Assembly: GCF_018141405.1 (NCBI RefSeq)
Contig: NZ_CP058648.1
Span: 139,001 to 203,000 of the forward strand
From: Serpentinicella alkaliphila
GTDB lineage: Bacteria; Bacillota; Clostridia; Peptostreptococcales; Natronincolaceae
Reading direction: 5' to 3'
Length of the DNA: 64,000 bases
Within the stretch, counting starts at the first letter, position 1; each line of letters begins with the position of its first letter. Positions 3,624 to 50,523 of this stretch are shown one piece after another. The notes beneath the pieces are model-generated. The model saw nothing but the letters and a program-made list of their open reading frames with translations, had not been told where the DNA came from and did not search any database. A program made the position numbers and the translations under genes.

Positions 3624-3899
3624 CTACCCCATCCTAGAAAAATGCTCTACGGCTTTGGCAAACTCAGCGATTGTTCTGTCTGCATCTCCATGCTCTATAC
3701 CATCTCGTACACAGTGTTGCAAATGACCTTCTAAAACTACCTGACCAACTTTATGAAGCGCACTTTTAGCTGCATTTCTTTGTATTAAAATATCTTCACA
3801 AGGAATATCTTTGTCTACCATTTCTGAAATAGCTCTTAGCTGCCCTTCAATTTTTTTAATCCTAGATTGAACTTTTTTAGTATCAATACATTGACGCAT
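3624..3899 (-). CDS. csoR: CsoR-family metal-sensing repressor
   Basis: A 91-residue all-helical repressor of the CsoR/RcnR family. The family's copper ligands are present in the expected places: C34 (IPCEDIL), H59 and C63 (EGHLQHC), the Cys-His-Cys pattern of Cu(I)-sensing CsoR rather than the Cys-Cys-only CstR or His-rich RcnR pattern. A strong AGGAGG site precedes the ATG. It is followed 8 nt later by the P-type ATPase gene it presumably controls, and preceded by a perfect inverted repeat (3921-3948) that is the likely operator. In this family metal binding releases DNA and derepresses the exporter. Ligand assignment is by motif only. Confidence 0.92.
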   Translation of the reverse strand: MRQCIDTKKVQSRIKKIEGQLRAISEMVDKDIPCEDILIQRNAAKSALHKVGQVVLEGHLQHCVRDGIEHGDADRTIAEFAKAVEHFSRMG

Positions 3900-44577: not shown

Positions 44578-45992
44578 TTAAAAACTAACCTGATTATGCT
44601 CCAACAATCTTACTAACATAGCTATTGCCTGCTCTCTAGATGTATTTCCTCTAGGGTTAATTATATTTTTGCCTACTCCACTAATCACTCCGAGTTTATT
44701 CATTAGCTGTACTGAGCTTTTAGCATCGTCTGCTATTTCATCCTCATCACTAAAATATCTATACTCCTTCGTAACTACTGGATAAATCTCTAAAGAAGTT
44801 AGTACTCTTTCTAACATACAAGCCATCTGTTGCCTTGTAATCTTACCCTTAGGATCAAACTTACCGTCACCTATCCCATTTACTATACCCACTGAATATG
44901 CTTGCAAAATTGCAAGGTTTTGAGTATCCTTAAATATGTTTGAATTAGCCTTAATTTCAATTTTTCCACCTAGAATCCTATACAATTGTAAAGATAGCTC
45001 TGCAAATTCTTCCCGAGTAATGTCTGCTGTAAAATTACTTAGTATCTTCTGTGTAACTAGTTCATATGTTATAGCTTTCTCTATTTCTATCTTTGCCCAA
45101 TTTGAATAAGTATCATCTGGTGCATAGGTTATTTTATGGATTGGTGTTAATTTATTACTTTTAAATTCTGTTAAATGTGTATAACTTGAGTTCTTAGCCT
45201 TAGGATAATCTGCAGCATTCCAAGTATGGGTATTCCTCATAAAATTATCGTCTTTAAGGAAATACTTATATATAACTCTGCCCTTTACATCTGGAAGTGG
45301 GTCATTCCACGTTATATCTAAATGATACCATTCATCTGATATTTTAACTAAATTCCAAAGATGTGATTCATTTAGCCCACTACCTAAAATTAGCATATTA
45401 TCAATACCTAGCTCTTCAAACATTAAGTGGGCCAACAGAGATACCCTTGACATACTCCCTGACCTTTAAACATTACAGTGTGAGGACTATATGGATTTCC
45501 TGCATAATCCAAATTATACTCTGTATTCAATACAATAAAATTATTTACCGCTTTAATTTTTTCAATATCACTCATGTTATCAGTTATGATTTCCTTTAAC
45601 ACTCTCTTTACTGCTTCAGCAAGATCTCTTTCCTGTTCAGGTGTTGTCATGTATCCAATGGTATATTTAACTGTTATTCTATCAGTAAATCCATCTAAAC
45701 CATATTCTAATGTTGAATAACTGTATAAATTGTACGGGCTTTTAGCTATTGCACGATTGACAGTATCTAGTAATAACTCTGCTTTTTCACCTGCTATAAT
45801 TTGTGAAATTAGATCACTGCTAATAATATCAAATTCACTAATCGGATTTCGTTCACTCAATTGTGACACTATATATCGCTCAATGCTATCAAGACTTTTA
45901 AACTTAGGATTTATATTTTCTGCTGCGTATGTAAAGTTTCCTATAGACCCTACTAGTATACAAACTATTACTATGAGAATTCTTTTTAACAT
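44578..45992 (-). pseudogene. Secreted transglutaminase-like protein with S-layer homology domains, frameshifted
   Basis: The first part (45423-45992) has a signal peptide (MLKRILIVIVCILVGSIGNFTYA) and runs into a transglutaminase core up to KGQGVCQGY, the catalytic Cys. One base appears to be missing near 45440 and the frame resumes as LLAHLMFEELGIDNMLIL (start used at 45453). His (ESHLWNLVKI) and Asp (YHLDITWNDP) of the triad follow. Two to three SLH modules then anchor the protein to the cell wall (AILQAYSVGIVNGIGDGKFDPKG, ITRQQMACML, VISGVGKNIINPRGNTSREQA). Intact homologues would be about 465 residues. A single-base lesion could be natural or a sequencing error. Confidence 0.8.
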
Positions 45993-46156: not shown

Positions 46157-46813
46157 CTACTTATACTTGTTCTTAAAGTCTACATATCCATTTTTTCTTA
46201 ATTTACAGGCTGGACACTCTCCACAACCGTTACCCTTTATACCATTATAGCAGGTTAAGGTCTCTTCTTTTACGATATCTAATACACCTAAGTCATCAGC
46301 TAATTTCCATGTTTCTTCCTTATTTATCCACATTAATGGTGTTAATATTTCAAACTCATATGCCATTGCAAGGTTAAGTGTCACATTCAGAGATTTAATA
46401 AACACATCTCTGCAGTCTGGATAACCGCTAAAATCACTTTGGGATACTCCAGTAACGATAGCATTTATATCTCTTTGTTTTGCAAATATTCCAACAAAAG
46501 TTAAAAATAGAAGATTTCTCCCATCAACAAAGGAATTAGGTAATCCCTCTGTAGGTGCATTTTTATCCACACTTATATCCTGTCTAGTTAGGGAATTTGG
46601 TGCCAGCTGATTTAATAAATTCAAATCTAAAATGTGATGTTCAATATTATGCTTTTTACATATATCTTTTGCACATGCCAATTCTAATTTATGTTTTTGA
46701 TTATAGTCAAAAGATACTGCAATAACCTCTTTATATCTTTTCTTTGCCCAGAACAAACAAGTTGTACTATCTTGTCCACCACTAAACACAACTATAGCTT
46801 TATCCTTATTCAT
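46157..46813 (-). CDS. queC: 7-cyano-7-deazaguanine synthase QueC
   Basis: A 218-residue enzyme that converts 7-carboxy-7-deazaguanine plus ammonia and ATP to preQ0. The ATP-pyrophosphatase loop is [15 protein letters not shown] at the N-terminus. The zinc site is at the C-terminus in [19 protein letters not shown] (four Cys). [14 protein letters not shown] is the substrate-binding signature. Last gene of the operon that begins with the dehydratase-like pair at 50304, and starts 17 nt after folE. GGTGAGGG ribosome site. Confidence 0.96.
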
Positions 46814-46830
46814 ACCCTCACCGCCTTAAT

Positions 46831-47421
46831 TTATTTAGTATATAGAATCATAAGCTTATTATTTAAAACTGGATCACTATTAAATCTTCCCCTAGTTGTA
46901 ATTGTTATCGTTTTACTTCCCGGCTTTTCTATTCCTCTAGTAGTCATACATCCATGCTCCCCTTGAATAATAACAGCTACATCCTCTGATTCCGTTATTT
47001 TTTGTAGGATTTCTGCGATGTCACTACCAATCCTTTCCTGTAATTGTAACCTTCGGCCTACTAAATCCGCTATCCTTGCCATTTTACTTAAACCAATAAT
47101 CTTTTTGTTAGGAATATATGCTATTGCAACCTTCATGTTATACATAAGTGCTAAGTGATGCTCACAATGGCTAAATATTTCTATATCCTTCATAAACACT
47201 ATATCGTTAAAATTATCCTGTATATATATGTCTTCCTCAAATGTAGTATCATGCATTTGGGCTATTTCATCGTTTGTATAGCACATACCTTTAAACACTT
47301 CTTCAAACATTTTAGCTGCCCTTTTTGGTGTATCTTTTAAACCTTCCCGGTCAGGATTATCTCCTATGGCTATTAAAATACCTCTTATATGTTGTTCAAT
47401 TGCTTTTAAATCAATTGACAT
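46831..47421 (-). CDS. folE: GTP cyclohydrolase I
   Basis: A 196-residue type I GTP cyclohydrolase that makes 7,8-dihydroneopterin triphosphate, the shared precursor of folate and 7-deazaguanines. The zinc ligands are in [16 protein letters not shown] and [16 protein letters not shown] (Cys-His-Cys), and [11 protein letters not shown] is the usual substrate loop. Start with AAGGAGTG. It lies 2 nt after queE and supplies substrate to QueD in the same operon. Presence of a folE copy here suggests it serves queuosine rather than folate. Confidence 0.96.
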
Positions 47422-47423
47422 AA

Positions 47424-48089
47424 CTATACACTCCTTTTGTCTGGATCCCAGATAATCTTATGAAGCTGTACTTGTAATGTAACTCCATTCATATTGTTAT
47501 TTTTCATAAATTCCACTATTTCATCTAATGCAATTTTTCCAAATACAGAGCTTATATAGACATTTGTTTTATTTACTAAATCGTACTCCTCAATTAGCTC
47601 CTTTACCCTGTTTAAGTCCTCAATACTTCCAGAAACAAATTTAATTGTATCGTTTTTACTTATATATTTAAAATTCTCCAAAGCCATTTTATTTTCCATC
47701 CCACTCGAAGGGAGCTTATAGTCCATAGTAAAACTTGGGCAGTTTTTAATACTAACAAATTTGTCTATTAATACACTACCATTAGTTTCAATTTCTATAT
47801 AAAGCTCTGTATCACTAGAAAGTGTTTTTAGTAAATTTACTATTCCTTCTTGTAAAAGTGGTTCACCACCAGTTAAAGTTATATTATTAACTCCTGAAGA
47901 TTTAATATATTTATATATTTCTTCAATAGACATTATTTCATAAGAAACATCCTCTTCATTTGCCCAAGCTGTATCACAATAGCTACAGTTTAAATTACAA
48001 CCAGCAAATCTTATAAATACTGCAAGTTGGCCACAACGACGACCTTCTCCATTAATACTTACAAATTTCTCTACTACATTGAAACTCAT
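47424..48089 (-). CDS. queE: 7-carboxy-7-deazaguanine synthase QueE (radical SAM)
   Basis: A 221-residue radical SAM enzyme that contracts 6-carboxytetrahydropterin to 7-carboxy-7-deazaguanine. The SAM-cluster cysteines are C31, C35 and C38 in [29 protein letters not shown] is the QueE N-terminal signature and [10 protein letters not shown] the SAM-binding GGE motif. The ATG at 48089 with AGAGGTAATT is preferred; earlier starts would overlap queD by 50 nt. It follows queD within 2 nt. Confidence 0.95.
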
Positions 48090-48090
48090 T

Positions 48091-48522
48091 TTAATTACCT
48101 CTACTTTCTTCATAAGTGGCGCTATTAGTAGGAGTTTCATAAACAGTAGACCTTTTTACATTATAGCCTTTGTCCTTCATTGAGTTATAGAAAAACAATG
48201 AAAAATTTTCTGCTGTAGGCCTAAAATCAACCTCGATTATCGTAAAACCATCTTCCTTAAGACAAAGTAGAGTCTCTTCCCTCATAGTTCCACTTTGAAT
48301 TATTAATGCATGGTCAAAATAGTCTACCATTTCCTTTACATCCCTTTTTAAATCCCCAAAATCTACAACCATTCCATCTAATTGACCACCTGCTACCAAT
48401 GCTTCCGACTGTACTTCTATAACTACGTTCCATCTATGTCCATGAATATTGCTACATTTACCTTCGTAATTATGAAGAAAATGGGCACTATCAAAATGGT
48501 GTTCTGTCTTTAATATAAACAT
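48091..48522 (-). CDS. queD: 6-carboxy-5,6,7,8-tetrahydropterin synthase QueD
   Basis: A 143-residue member of the 6-pyruvoyltetrahydropterin synthase fold. Zinc-binding histidines H14, H27 and H29 lie in FDSAHFLHN and SNIHGHRW, with catalytic Cys23 in GKCSN. It turns the FolE product into carboxy-tetrahydropterin and acetaldehyde, the first committed step of queuosine precursor synthesis. AGGAGGAAAG site. It begins 10 nt after the activator-like gene 48533-49300, so all six genes are one transcription unit. Confidence 0.95.
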   Translation of the reverse strand: MFILKTEHHFDSAHFLHNYEGKCSNIHGHRWNVVIEVQSEALVAGGQLDGMVVDFGDLKRDVKEMVDYFDHALIIQSGTMREETLLCLKEDGFTIIEVDFRPTAENFSLFFYNSMKDKGYNVKRSTVYETPTNSATYEESRGN

Positions 48523-48532
48523 TTCTTTCCTC

Positions 48533-49300
48533 CTAGTCCTCTCTTAAAAATCGACTCCCATAATAACAGCAGCCTATTGCACCATTAAACTGGGGTTCCT
48601 CTATCGATATTATTTCTGAATAATCATTCTGTAAATATTCTCTTATAGCTAGGTTATTAGCTACTCCACCAGCTAGAATTAATTGCTTCCCTTTAAACTT
48701 ACTTAAAAGTGGCCGGAGCCTTTTATATAAAGAGTAATTTACTCCTGCATATAATTTTTCTACAGACACACCCTCTGCAATACTTCCAATCAACTCTGAC
48801 TCAGAAAATACCGCACAAGTTGAATTTAACTCTACCGGATCTTTATAATGCTTACTCATTTCATCTAAGGATACTTCAAGTACATTGGCCATGTTTTCTA
48901 AATACCTGCCACAGGATGCAGCACATTTTTCATTTAGCTCTAAATCTGTAGTGATGCCCTTTTCTACTTTTATAACTTTAACATCCTGTCCACCAACATC
49001 TAAGAGTATAAAATCCTTCAAACCAGTTTGATACATTGCTCCATAAACATGAGCCTTTATTTCATTTATTTGAGTAAAGAGCTTAAGATTAGTATTATTT
49101 TTTCCATAGCCTGTAGATACTGCTCTATCAATTTCACCAATGTCTAATTTTCCTAGATCAACAATAACCTTGCCATCGAAACTACAGTAGTCCCTATAAA
49201 ACTTCATTGTACTTATTTTTTTCTTAATAACTATCTTATCCTTTTCCATTACTACAATTTTAACTTCTCTACTACCTAAATCTATGCCTAAGATTCTCAT
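48533..49300 (-). CDS. 2-hydroxyacyl-CoA dehydratase activator-like ATPase (BadF/HgdC family)
   Basis: A 255-residue ASKHA-fold ATPase. Nucleotide-binding motifs are ILGIDLGSREVKIVV, FILLDVGGQDVKVI and LILAGGVANN. The cysteines that in HgdC bridge one [4Fe-4S] cluster between two subunits are at about C126 (NEKCAASCGRYLENMA) and C162 (LNSTCAVFSESEL). Proteins of this family use ATP to push an electron to very low potential into a partner Fe-S enzyme. The partner-type gene lies 2 nt upstream and queDE-folE-queC follow 10 nt downstream. No fermentation gene (CoA-transferase, amino-acid enzymes) is nearby, so a link to queuosine rather than amino-acid fermentation is inferred. Confidence 0.85.
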   Translation of the reverse strand: MRILGIDLGSREVKIVVMEKDKIVIKKKISTMKFYRDYCSFDGKVIVDLGKLDIGEIDRAVSTGYGKNNTNLKLFTQINEIKAHVYGAMYQTGLKDFILLDVGGQDVKVIKVEKGITTDLELNEKCAASCGRYLENMANVLEVSLDEMSKHYKDPVELNSTCAVFSESELIGSIAEGVSVEKLYAGVNYSLYKRLRPLLSKFKGKQLILAGGVANNLAIREYLQNDYSEIISIEEPQFNGAIGCCYYGSRFLRED

Positions 49301-49302
49301 TA

Positions 49303-50304
49303 TTAATTAGCCTCCTTTAAGTCTGATAACATATCAATAAAGGCTTCTAATCTAAGCTTTGTTCTTGCATCTAGTACATTTAGTTTATCCCCTTCAATAT
49401 TTAAAATAGGAATATCTAACTGTTTCTTTAACACTATATCCTCAACAGCTCTATAACAAAAAGCTTGGGTATAGTGTATAATTGCATCTATTTTTCTTTC
49501 CTCTATTTGCTTCTTTAGTTCGTTTATTCTAAATGTAGTATTATATGGATATGTGTAATCATAATATTGCTCAAATATATTTTTTGCAGTAATCGCCCTT
49601 GGGAAAGCAAATTCTCGTTGCACCTCATTATATACAAAATGAGCATCTAGACTTTCAACGAACTCATATATATCCCCTGTCATAGGTGGCACTCCTATAT
49701 ATCCAAGTCTTACTTTTCTATTTATTGGCTTCCTTTGTTTGATCTCTGATATAGCATCTTTAAGGGAGTTCTCAAAATTATCTACATTTCCATTAAAATC
49801 ACTAAGGCTTATCTGATATATATGATTTTCAAAGCCATTAACCTTATTTTCTAAATAAGTAAGTTCATCTATTTCCTTTGCTAGCTCTCTCAATTTATTT
49901 AGTCTCTGTCTTGTTTGCTCAACGCTTTCTTCAGTAACATTAAATATATTCATAAATTTTCTTATTTCAATCTCTACATCTTTTAAATTATGACTATGTG
50001 GAAATGAGAAAGGATACACTTTTATACCTTTTAGCTGTAACACTTCGATAAGTGCCCTTGTATTTGAACAATCACCTTCAACTACTCCAACTATTTCTTT
50101 TATATCATTCTCTAAACATGCACCATAAATTCCTTTAATCCAGGCACATAAACTTTTGGGGAATCCATCTCTTTCAGCTATATCTATATATTTTAAATAA
50201 TCTTCTGAAGTTATAAATATATTATTTAAATCTACCGGTGAATAGCCAGCCGTAACAAGGACTTCCACAGGTACAGTTGTTGTTAAACCAATTTTTTTCA
50301 ACAT
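49303..50304 (-). CDS. 2-hydroxyacyl-CoA-dehydratase-like Fe-S protein (HgdB-type)
   Basis: A 333-residue protein related to the D-component/beta subunit of 2-hydroxyacyl-CoA dehydratases. It keeps candidate cluster cysteines C53, C63, C79 (VVEGDCSNTRAL) and C283 (HYTQAFCYRAVED) and the family's IGYIGVPPMTGD-like fold region near 200. Real dehydratases have two such subunits plus an activator, while here there is a single subunit and one activator, as in some non-dehydratase members (benzoyl-CoA-like or double-cubane cluster proteins). First gene behind a preQ1 riboswitch and followed by queDE-folE-queC. Substrate unknown; a deazaguanine or epoxyqueuosine is inferred from context. GAGGAG site. 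Confidence 0.8.
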   Translation of the reverse strand: MLKKIGLTTTVPVEVLVTAGYSPVDLNNIFITSEDYLKYIDIAERDGFPKSLCAWIKGIYGACLENDIKEIVGVVEGDCSNTRALIEVLQLKGIKVYPFSFPHSHNLKDVEIEIRKFMNIFNVTEESVEQTRQRLNKLRELAKEIDELTYLENKVNGFENHIYQISLSDFNGNVDNFENSLKDAISEIKQRKPINRKVRLGYIGVPPMTGDIYEFVESLDAHFVYNEVQREFAFPRAITAKNIFEQYYDYTYPYNTTFRINELKKQIEERKIDAIIHYTQAFCYRAVEDIVLKKQLDIPILNIEGDKLNVLDARTKLRLEAFIDMLSDLKEAN

Positions 50305-50335
50305 TATTTCTCCTCGATCCTATGTTTTTGGCAAC

Positions 50336-50354
50336 AAAAAAAGGGCATATGCCC
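50336..50354 (-). terminator. Second terminator hairpin of the preQ1 leader
   Basis: A perfect 12-bp palindrome GGGCATATGCCC (50343-50354) followed on the minus strand by seven Ts (50342-50336), 32 nt before the first start codon of the operon. Confidence 0.65.
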
Positions 50355-50360
50355 ATAAAC

Positions 50361-50386
50361 AAAAAAAGACTACACGAACTCGTAGT
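50361..50386 (-). terminator. First terminator hairpin of the preQ1 leader
   Basis: ACTACG...TGTAGT hairpin (50369-50386), directly followed on the minus strand by seven Ts (50367-50361). It starts just 5 nt after the riboswitch aptamer, the usual position of the expression platform. Confidence 0.7.
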
Positions 50387-50391
50387 TCTTA

Positions 50392-50431
50392 TCCTAGTTT
50401 TGTTTATAGACAGGATGGTCACGAACTGTCT
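50392..50431 (-). ncRNA. preQ1-I riboswitch aptamer
   Basis: In RNA sense the leader reads AGACAG, a loop UUCGUGACCAUC, CUGUCU, then the A-rich tail AUAAACAAAACUAGGA. This matches the preQ1 class I architecture: one hairpin followed by an adenine-rich tail whose end folds back on the loop as a pseudoknot. The tail is almost the same as in the well-studied Thermoanaerobacter aptamer (UUAACAAAACAAGG). It lies about 90 nt upstream of the first gene of the que operon, so preQ1 should terminate transcription of the operon. An upstream 8-base stretch (50461-50468) can pair with the tail (50395-50402) as an alternative fold. Confidence 0.85.
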
Positions 50432-50434
50432 GGG

Positions 50435-50460
50435 CTTAATCACGACTATTCATGACTAAG
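50435..50460 (-). other. Leader hairpin upstream of the preQ1 aptamer
   Basis: In the RNA, CUUAGUCAUG pairs with CGUGAUUAAG (10 bp with two wobbles) around loop AAUAGU. Together with the flanking UAGUUUUG at 50461-50468, which can pair with CAAAACUA in the aptamer tail, it may take part in switching. Confidence 0.4.
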
Positions 50461-50493
50461 CAAAACTATTGATTTTTCAATAAATCTATTTTT

Positions 50494-50523
50494 ATTTAAT
50501 CATACTTTTTCACCTTTTGTCAA
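50494..50523 (-). promoter_or_regulatory. Probable promoter of the que operon
   Basis: A -35 TTGACA (50518-50523) and a -10-like TTAAAT (50494-50499) with an 18-nt spacer on the minus strand. The predicted start would give a leader of about 180 nt carrying the riboswitch. Confidence 0.5.

Follow-up and report, generated by a model that had tools for sequence, protein, structure and literature searches.

An HgdB/HgdC-like gene pair as a predicted replacement for QueF in a preQ1-riboswitch operon of Serpentinicella alkaliphila

Why would a pair of genes resembling the catalytic and activating components of 2-hydroxyacyl-CoA dehydratases stand first in an operon for queuosine precursors? The question arises in a 64,000-nucleotide (nt) stretch of the Serpentinicella alkaliphila genome (NZ_CP058648.1, positions 139,001-203,000), referred to here as the window, whose numbering is used for the coordinates of the locus. 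On its minus strand, at 46157-50304, six genes form one tight operon that runs from an HgdB-like (HGD-D) protein and an HgdC-type activase through queD, queE and folE to queC. Together, FolE, QueD, QueE and QueC would supply preQ0 (7-cyano-7-deazaguanine), the compound that QueF reduces to preQ1. We consider it very likely, with a probability of about 0.86, that the HgdB/HgdC-like pair, which takes the place of a missing QueF in many anaerobic bacteria, is its non-orthologous substitute and works as a two-component, ATP-dependent preQ0 reductase that makes preQ1. This activity is predicted from the pattern in which the pair and QueF replace each other across genomes.

Mutual exclusion with QueF

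Presence and absence were called in 391 Clostridia-class genomes with one profile per family, QueF being judged by PF14489. Only matches with E < 1e-29 were counted as true QueF; the QueF and FolE families are related, and weaker matches were FolE-sized. QueC was present in 52 of the genomes, true QueF in 38 and the pair in 26. The 52 genomes with QueC divide into 27 with QueF only and 24 with the pair only, and none holds both (Fisher P = 6e-14). The sole genome with neither is 84% complete and has a partial QueC match. In the family to which S. alkaliphila belongs (20 genomes), the HgdB-like protein occurs in eight genomes and QueF in only two, both of them without the pair. We found no QueF in 50 named pair-bearing genomes, Fusobacteria and Geobacter included; the two weak matches among them are FolE-sized (196-197 amino acids, aa), like other marginal matches. 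QueA, whose substrate is preQ1 in tRNA, is encoded in 47 of these 50.

Within single genera, the two systems exchange places. Genus g84 contains loci of the form aptamer-queD-queE-folE-queC-queF (L122, L123) and others of the form aptamer-HgdB-HgdC-queD-queE-folE-queC (L126, L127), and the same swap between queF and the pair is seen in genus g65 (L128 versus L129). Stand-alone queF (L124, L133, L134) and the stand-alone pair (L131, L136, L140) also lie behind the same aptamer. Based on these swaps and on the aptamer shared by the stand-alone versions, the pair and queF therefore behave as interchangeable parts.

Several points weigh against a replacement. Kinship among the genomes inflates the Fisher value, and permutation within families, which is stricter, gives P = 0.013, as a single sampled family contains both types. 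QueF was called absent by the PF14489 profile, and a QueF-like enzyme outside that profile is possible. Pairs from Geobacter, Syntrophomonas and Pelotomaculum, whose members are 47-50% identical, have neither que neighbours nor an aptamer; they lie mostly near murI, and several lie near fumarase, rph and rdgB (L105, L107, L109, L113, L115, L119). Finally, QueF needs only NADPH, which leaves no evident reason for a cell to spend ATP on preQ0; a low flux and an anaerobic way of life are suggestions only. QueF is also missing from the Geobacter, Pelotomaculum and Syntrophomonas genomes, nearly all of which have QueA, and it is with less confidence that we assign their pairs the same job as the que-linked ones.

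The operon, its leader and relatives of the pair

The leader elements and genes are given below in the order of transcription.

50393..50430, minus strand: preQ1-I type I aptamer by its sequence marks, GACAGTTCGTGACCATCCTGTCTATAAACAAAACTAGG; P1 GACAG/CTGTC; UU, UC and tail marks; A-rich tail AAACTAGG
50361..50386, minus strand: first terminator-like hairpin, ACTACGAGTTCGTGTAGT followed by T7; read from the sequence
50336..50354, minus strand: second terminator-like hairpin, GGGC-ATAT-GCCC followed by T7; read from the sequence and present in the predicted fold
49303..50304, minus strand: HgdB-like protein of 333 aa, put forward as the [4Fe-4S] reductase component and catalytic subunit; PF06050, exclusion with QueF, invariant cysteines, AlphaFold2 fold
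48533..49300, minus strand: HgdC-like activase of 255 aa, which would use ATP to pass electrons to the HgdB-like protein; TIGR00241, PF01869, cysteines and ASKHA motifs
48091..48522, minus strand: queD, 6-carboxytetrahydropterin synthase; TIGR03367, 95.6 bits (cut-off 89.25)
47424..48140 as called, likelier start 48089, minus strand: queE; TIGR03963, 350.9 bits (cut-off 260)
46831..47421, minus strand: folE, GTP cyclohydrolase I; TIGR00063, 183 bits (cut-off 181.6)
46157..46813, minus strand: queC, preQ0 synthase; TIGR00364, 271.9 bits (cut-off 150.3), and PF06508

Gaps of 2, 10, 2 and 17 nt separate the genes, with the queD/queE junction counted separately: as called, these two overlap by 50 nt, and they would lie 1 nt apart if queE starts at an internal ATG at 48089. 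Beyond the operon, two overlapping open reading frames (ORFs) of 189 and 291 aa at 44578-45992 on the minus strand resemble one transglutaminase-like SLH-domain protein split by a frameshift, which may be a natural lesion or a sequencing error.

In the aptamer, the 5' strand of P1 is followed by UU, its 3' strand is preceded by UC, and the tail has the conserved C; these are the marks that define preQ1-I type I riboswitches (PMC11625349). The window holds a single copy of the aptamer's 22-nt core, and 100 shuffles produced none. The Rfam PreQ1 model RF00522 scores it at 21 bits, below the gathering score of 39, which was likewise reached neither in the leaders of eight relatives nor in any of the loci scanned. 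Judged by its marks, the leader is a genuine preQ1-I type I aptamer despite that score, and these type I features predict that it binds preQ1 and acts as a preQ1-sensing riboswitch. Both hairpin-plus-T7 stretches are placed between the aptamer and the start codon of the HgdB-like gene, so the operon is probably controlled by transcription termination. In the predicted fold, the first hairpin competes with other pairings, and a simple terminator scan flagged neither of the two.

Two features of the aptamer copies deserve separate mention. P1 reads GACAG/CTGTC in all 61 distinct true copies (the L036-L137 leaders and the window), across Clostridia and Fusobacteria and regardless of whether the pair, queF, queC or queD lies downstream, which is odd for a stem that needs only to pair; because P1 is invariant, covariation is uninformative about it. 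In addition, the regions L044 (5108, 8955) and L067 (7915, 11567) each hold two copies, one before the pair and the other before queD.

An alignment-based scan of genome contigs yielded 462 confirmed relatives. The best 80 of the 462 were kept, and as these are the closest relatives, the fractions drawn from them are no census: the HgdC gene follows the HgdB gene in 80/80 loci, and a same-strand queD, queE, folE or queC comes after the pair in 58, all in other genomes, at a distance of at most 300 nt in 55. The arrangement is therefore not the product of chance. An aptamer heads 59 of the 69 relatives examined for it, and among the seven relatives in the organism's own family, six have queD in the same neighbourhood, five of these together with queC. 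The original prediction, made from the window alone, had described the six-gene operon, the aptamer and the terminators behind it, had found the pair's place behind the switch hard to explain as chance, and had pointed to recurrence with queDE-folE-queC and preQ1-I switches as the observation to look for. These claims hold up: the family scans are clear for all six genes, the recurrence is found at the frequencies just given, and the placement is not confined to one genome.

At some loci no que genes follow, and the pair is succeeded by YhhQ (PF02592; L009, L074) or by QueT (PF06177; L080, L085). The E. coli YhhQ is a preQ0 transporter (PMC5372724), and such contexts look like salvage versions in which a precursor is imported instead of synthesized. 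A supposed QueT beside queG at L034 was rejected, as it is a general ECF S-component (PF12822). Selenocysteine in relatives, which an in-frame TGA could have signified, was likewise rejected, the TGA being the true C-terminal stop. No phage-borne relative was found in 50,697 phage records. In an Alkaliphilus metagenome-assembled genome (L011:3916-5949, minus strand), an extra ORF of 677 aa stands between HgdB and HgdC, with a second aptamer at 3859 before HgdC.

Protein family, fold and proposed mechanism

PF06050 (HGD-D; 137 bits, cut-off 28.4) is the sole family found in the HgdB-like protein, which matches the profile of the benzoyl-CoA reductase/2-hydroxyacyl-CoA dehydratase (BCR/HAD) superfamily and has no homology to PF14489 (QueF). 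Its AlphaFold2 model has a predicted local distance difference test (pLDDT) score of 89 and aligns with the solved folds of DCCP, 2-hydroxyisocaproyl-CoA dehydratase (HAD) and BzdNO at Z of about 25-32 over 313-329 residues. The cysteines C53, C79 and C283 do not vary among 28 sequences and occur in the paralogue groups as well; together these three fit one putative [4Fe-4S] cluster with an open site. The protein therefore has both the HGD-D fold and the three cysteines by which the superfamily is recognized. The HgdB-like proteins from Ruminiclostridium sufflavum and a near-identical genome (L098, L135) contain an insertion of about 36 aa.

Where double-cubane-type paralogues have three further invariant cysteines, the que-linked proteins have T8, N27 and Q229, which are equally invariant. 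At the position of N27, aligned HadB-like paralogues have a Glu that is probably the equivalent of BzdO Glu65. In BzdO, three cysteines hold a [4Fe-4S] cluster whose fourth iron binds water, and Trp46 and the substrate ring fill the room left by the lost sub-cluster (PMC11971306). In the tree, the que-linked proteins form one group (support 91/99) on a long branch apart from the paralogues. The organism's own fermentation-type paralogues, at 1.82 Mb, fall in a separate clade; they are tandem HGD-D genes (G000:C1:1817340-1823180), one of which is apparently broken by an internal TGA and TAA.

The activase scores 161.7 bits against TIGR00241 (cut-off 125.4) and also matches PF01869. Its C126 and C162 and the ASKHA motifs GIDLGSR, LDVGGQD and GGVA are invariant in eight sequences. 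It thus has the features of an HgdC-type protein: the curated profile score, a pair of cysteines in each subunit that would bind a shared [4Fe-4S] cluster, and the ASKHA motifs.

These features place the pair among several known systems. Its nearest solved sequence is DCCP (E 4.5e-14; fold Z about 31; DCCP/DCCP-R structures 6ENO, 7YYL and 7YZM), with which it shares a single HGD-D gene beside an HgdC-type ATPase, and small-molecule reduction has been reported for DCCP. Unlike DCCP, the HgdB-like protein keeps only three of the six double-cubane cysteines, has 333 aa versus 421, and reaches only 53.7 bits against NF040772 (cut-off 350). To our knowledge, DCCP has no known physiological substrate. 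The 2-hydroxyacyl-CoA dehydratases (HadBC/HgdAB with HadI/HgdC) resemble the pair in fold (Z about 30), in their TIGR00241 activase and in a three-cysteine [4Fe-4S] cluster. They differ in having a second subunit, whereas this locus and its relatives have one HGD-D gene, and the pair lies away from fermentation genes in its own clade; its gene context points to a deazaguanine instead of a CoA-ester substrate. The best VIA match is the class I benzoyl-CoA reductase BzdNO (8S02; 8s02_B, Z 32.5), which carries out a true, ATP-driven reduction at an open [4Fe-4S] cluster, as we propose for the pair. As a heterodimer that acts on a CoA substrate, BzdNO differs from the pair, for which we propose a single subunit and a purine-like substrate. 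Profile, fold and cysteines assign the pair to the BCR/HAD superfamily, but it is neither a DCCP nor a dehydratase subunit pair. With QueF (PF14489, EC 1.7.1.13, NADPH-dependent) it shares the proposed reaction, place in the pathway, preQ1-I control and operons. It has no sequence or fold relation to QueF (PF06050 versus PF14489), and its proposed one-electron Fe-S/ATP chemistry differs from the use of NADPH and a thioimide intermediate.

We propose the following mechanism. The activase would be a homodimer in which C126 and C162 of the two subunits together bind a single [4Fe-4S] cluster, and ATP would drive low-potential electrons, probably from ferredoxin, singly into the HgdB-like subunit. 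There, the cluster on C53, C79 and C283 would leave one open iron beside a pocket. This pocket would occupy the site of the second double-cubane half in relatives, now lined by the invariant T8, N27 and Q229. With preQ0 in the pocket and its nitrile at the open iron, four one-electron/proton steps would take the nitrile through an imine to the aminomethyl group. The preQ1 so formed would pass to Tgt and QueA and would also feed back on the operon through the riboswitch. At four electrons per nitrile and at least one ATP per electron, the reaction would be costly and perhaps tolerable only at small flux. Reduction of multiple bonds by this kind of machinery has precedent, since DCCP reduces acetylene, hydrazine and azide. 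We also regard it as likely, a little less so than the replacement of QueF itself, that the pair represents a second class of nitrile reductase in biology, in which an Fe-S enzyme driven by ATP converts an organic nitrile to a primary amine with four electrons, transferred one at a time on an open-site [4Fe-4S] cluster. Such an enzyme would be common among Clostridia and would extend to Fusobacteria and Geobacter.

Alternative explanations and significance

Of the other explanations, the one that survives best, improbable as it is, has the pair reduce the nitrile of preQ0 already placed in tRNA by Tgt. It would produce the same complementarity with QueF, and bacterial Tgt takes preQ0 in vitro. 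The buried active-site cleft of the superfamily and control by a riboswitch for free preQ1 are easier to reconcile with the free base, and the salvage pairings with YhhQ or QueT fit either substrate and are neutral. Free preQ0 is the likelier substrate.

The original prediction had expected a new reductive step in deazaguanine metabolism and had offered as an example an alternative epoxyqueuosine reductase, which would complete queuosine synthesis by removing the oxygen of the epoxide. HGD-D/activase enzymes do remove oxygen groups reductively, and the search for QueG came up empty in 34 of 76 pair-bearing genomes. QueG was matched in the other 42, however (39 over the cut-off), and the QueG of S. 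alkaliphila itself is intact; the pair is therefore no stand-in for QueG. A stop inside this QueG had been considered and was rejected, the ORF being intact at 304 aa. Whether pair-bearing genomes lack queG and queH had been posed as a check. QueG (TIGR00276) is matched in 20/20 family genomes, and QueH (PF02677) was found in none of these 20, whether they carry the pair or not. An epoxyqueuosine reductase would moreover leave the missing QueF of 24 QueC-bearing genomes unexplained, and we give it very little credence. What stands of the expectation is a dedicated, co-inherited reductive step; its assignment to epoxyqueuosine does not, the exclusion being with QueF. A normal QueG combined with relatives among amino-acid fermentation genes had been named as evidence against a deazaguanine role; the QueG is indeed normal, and the fermentation-type paralogues form a separate clade.

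It is just as doubtful that the pair skips preQ0 and reduces an earlier intermediate, 7-carboxy- or 7-amido-7-deazaguanine, directly in the direction of preQ1. The pair does lie within the same operon, and HGD-D enzymes use ketyl chemistry to activate carbonyl groups, but nearly all pair-bearing operons keep QueC, so that preQ0 is made, and the salvage versions include YhhQ, whose E. coli member carries preQ0. Some other deazaguanine role, such as electron supply to or repair of QueG or QueE with preQ1 coming from an unrecognised QueF, is similarly remote: related ATP-dependent activating enzymes reactivate corrinoid proteins (PMC6739815) and QueG is a corrinoid enzyme (PMC4646009), but the pair occurs in many genomes without QueG and is missing from QueF-bearing genomes of the same genus, the exclusion being specific to QueF.

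The replacement of QueF by the pair thus remains the explanation that we favor. We found no earlier report linking the HgdB/HgdC-like family with queuosine in open-access papers, subscription papers and preprints being outside the scope of the search. The literature presents QueF as the sole nitrile reductase known in biology. If our proposal is true, a second, unrelated nitrile reductase would end that standing and would open a new way, based on ATP and Fe-S chemistry, of making an amine from a nitrile. The BCR/HAD superfamily would gain a biosynthetic substrate other than a CoA ester, and a physiological role would be found near a superfamily branch whose DCCP relatives have none. A gap in queuosine reconstructions would also be filled, as genomes that carry the pair and lack QueF would otherwise be misread as dependent on preQ1 under current rules (PMC6593275, PMC5372724).

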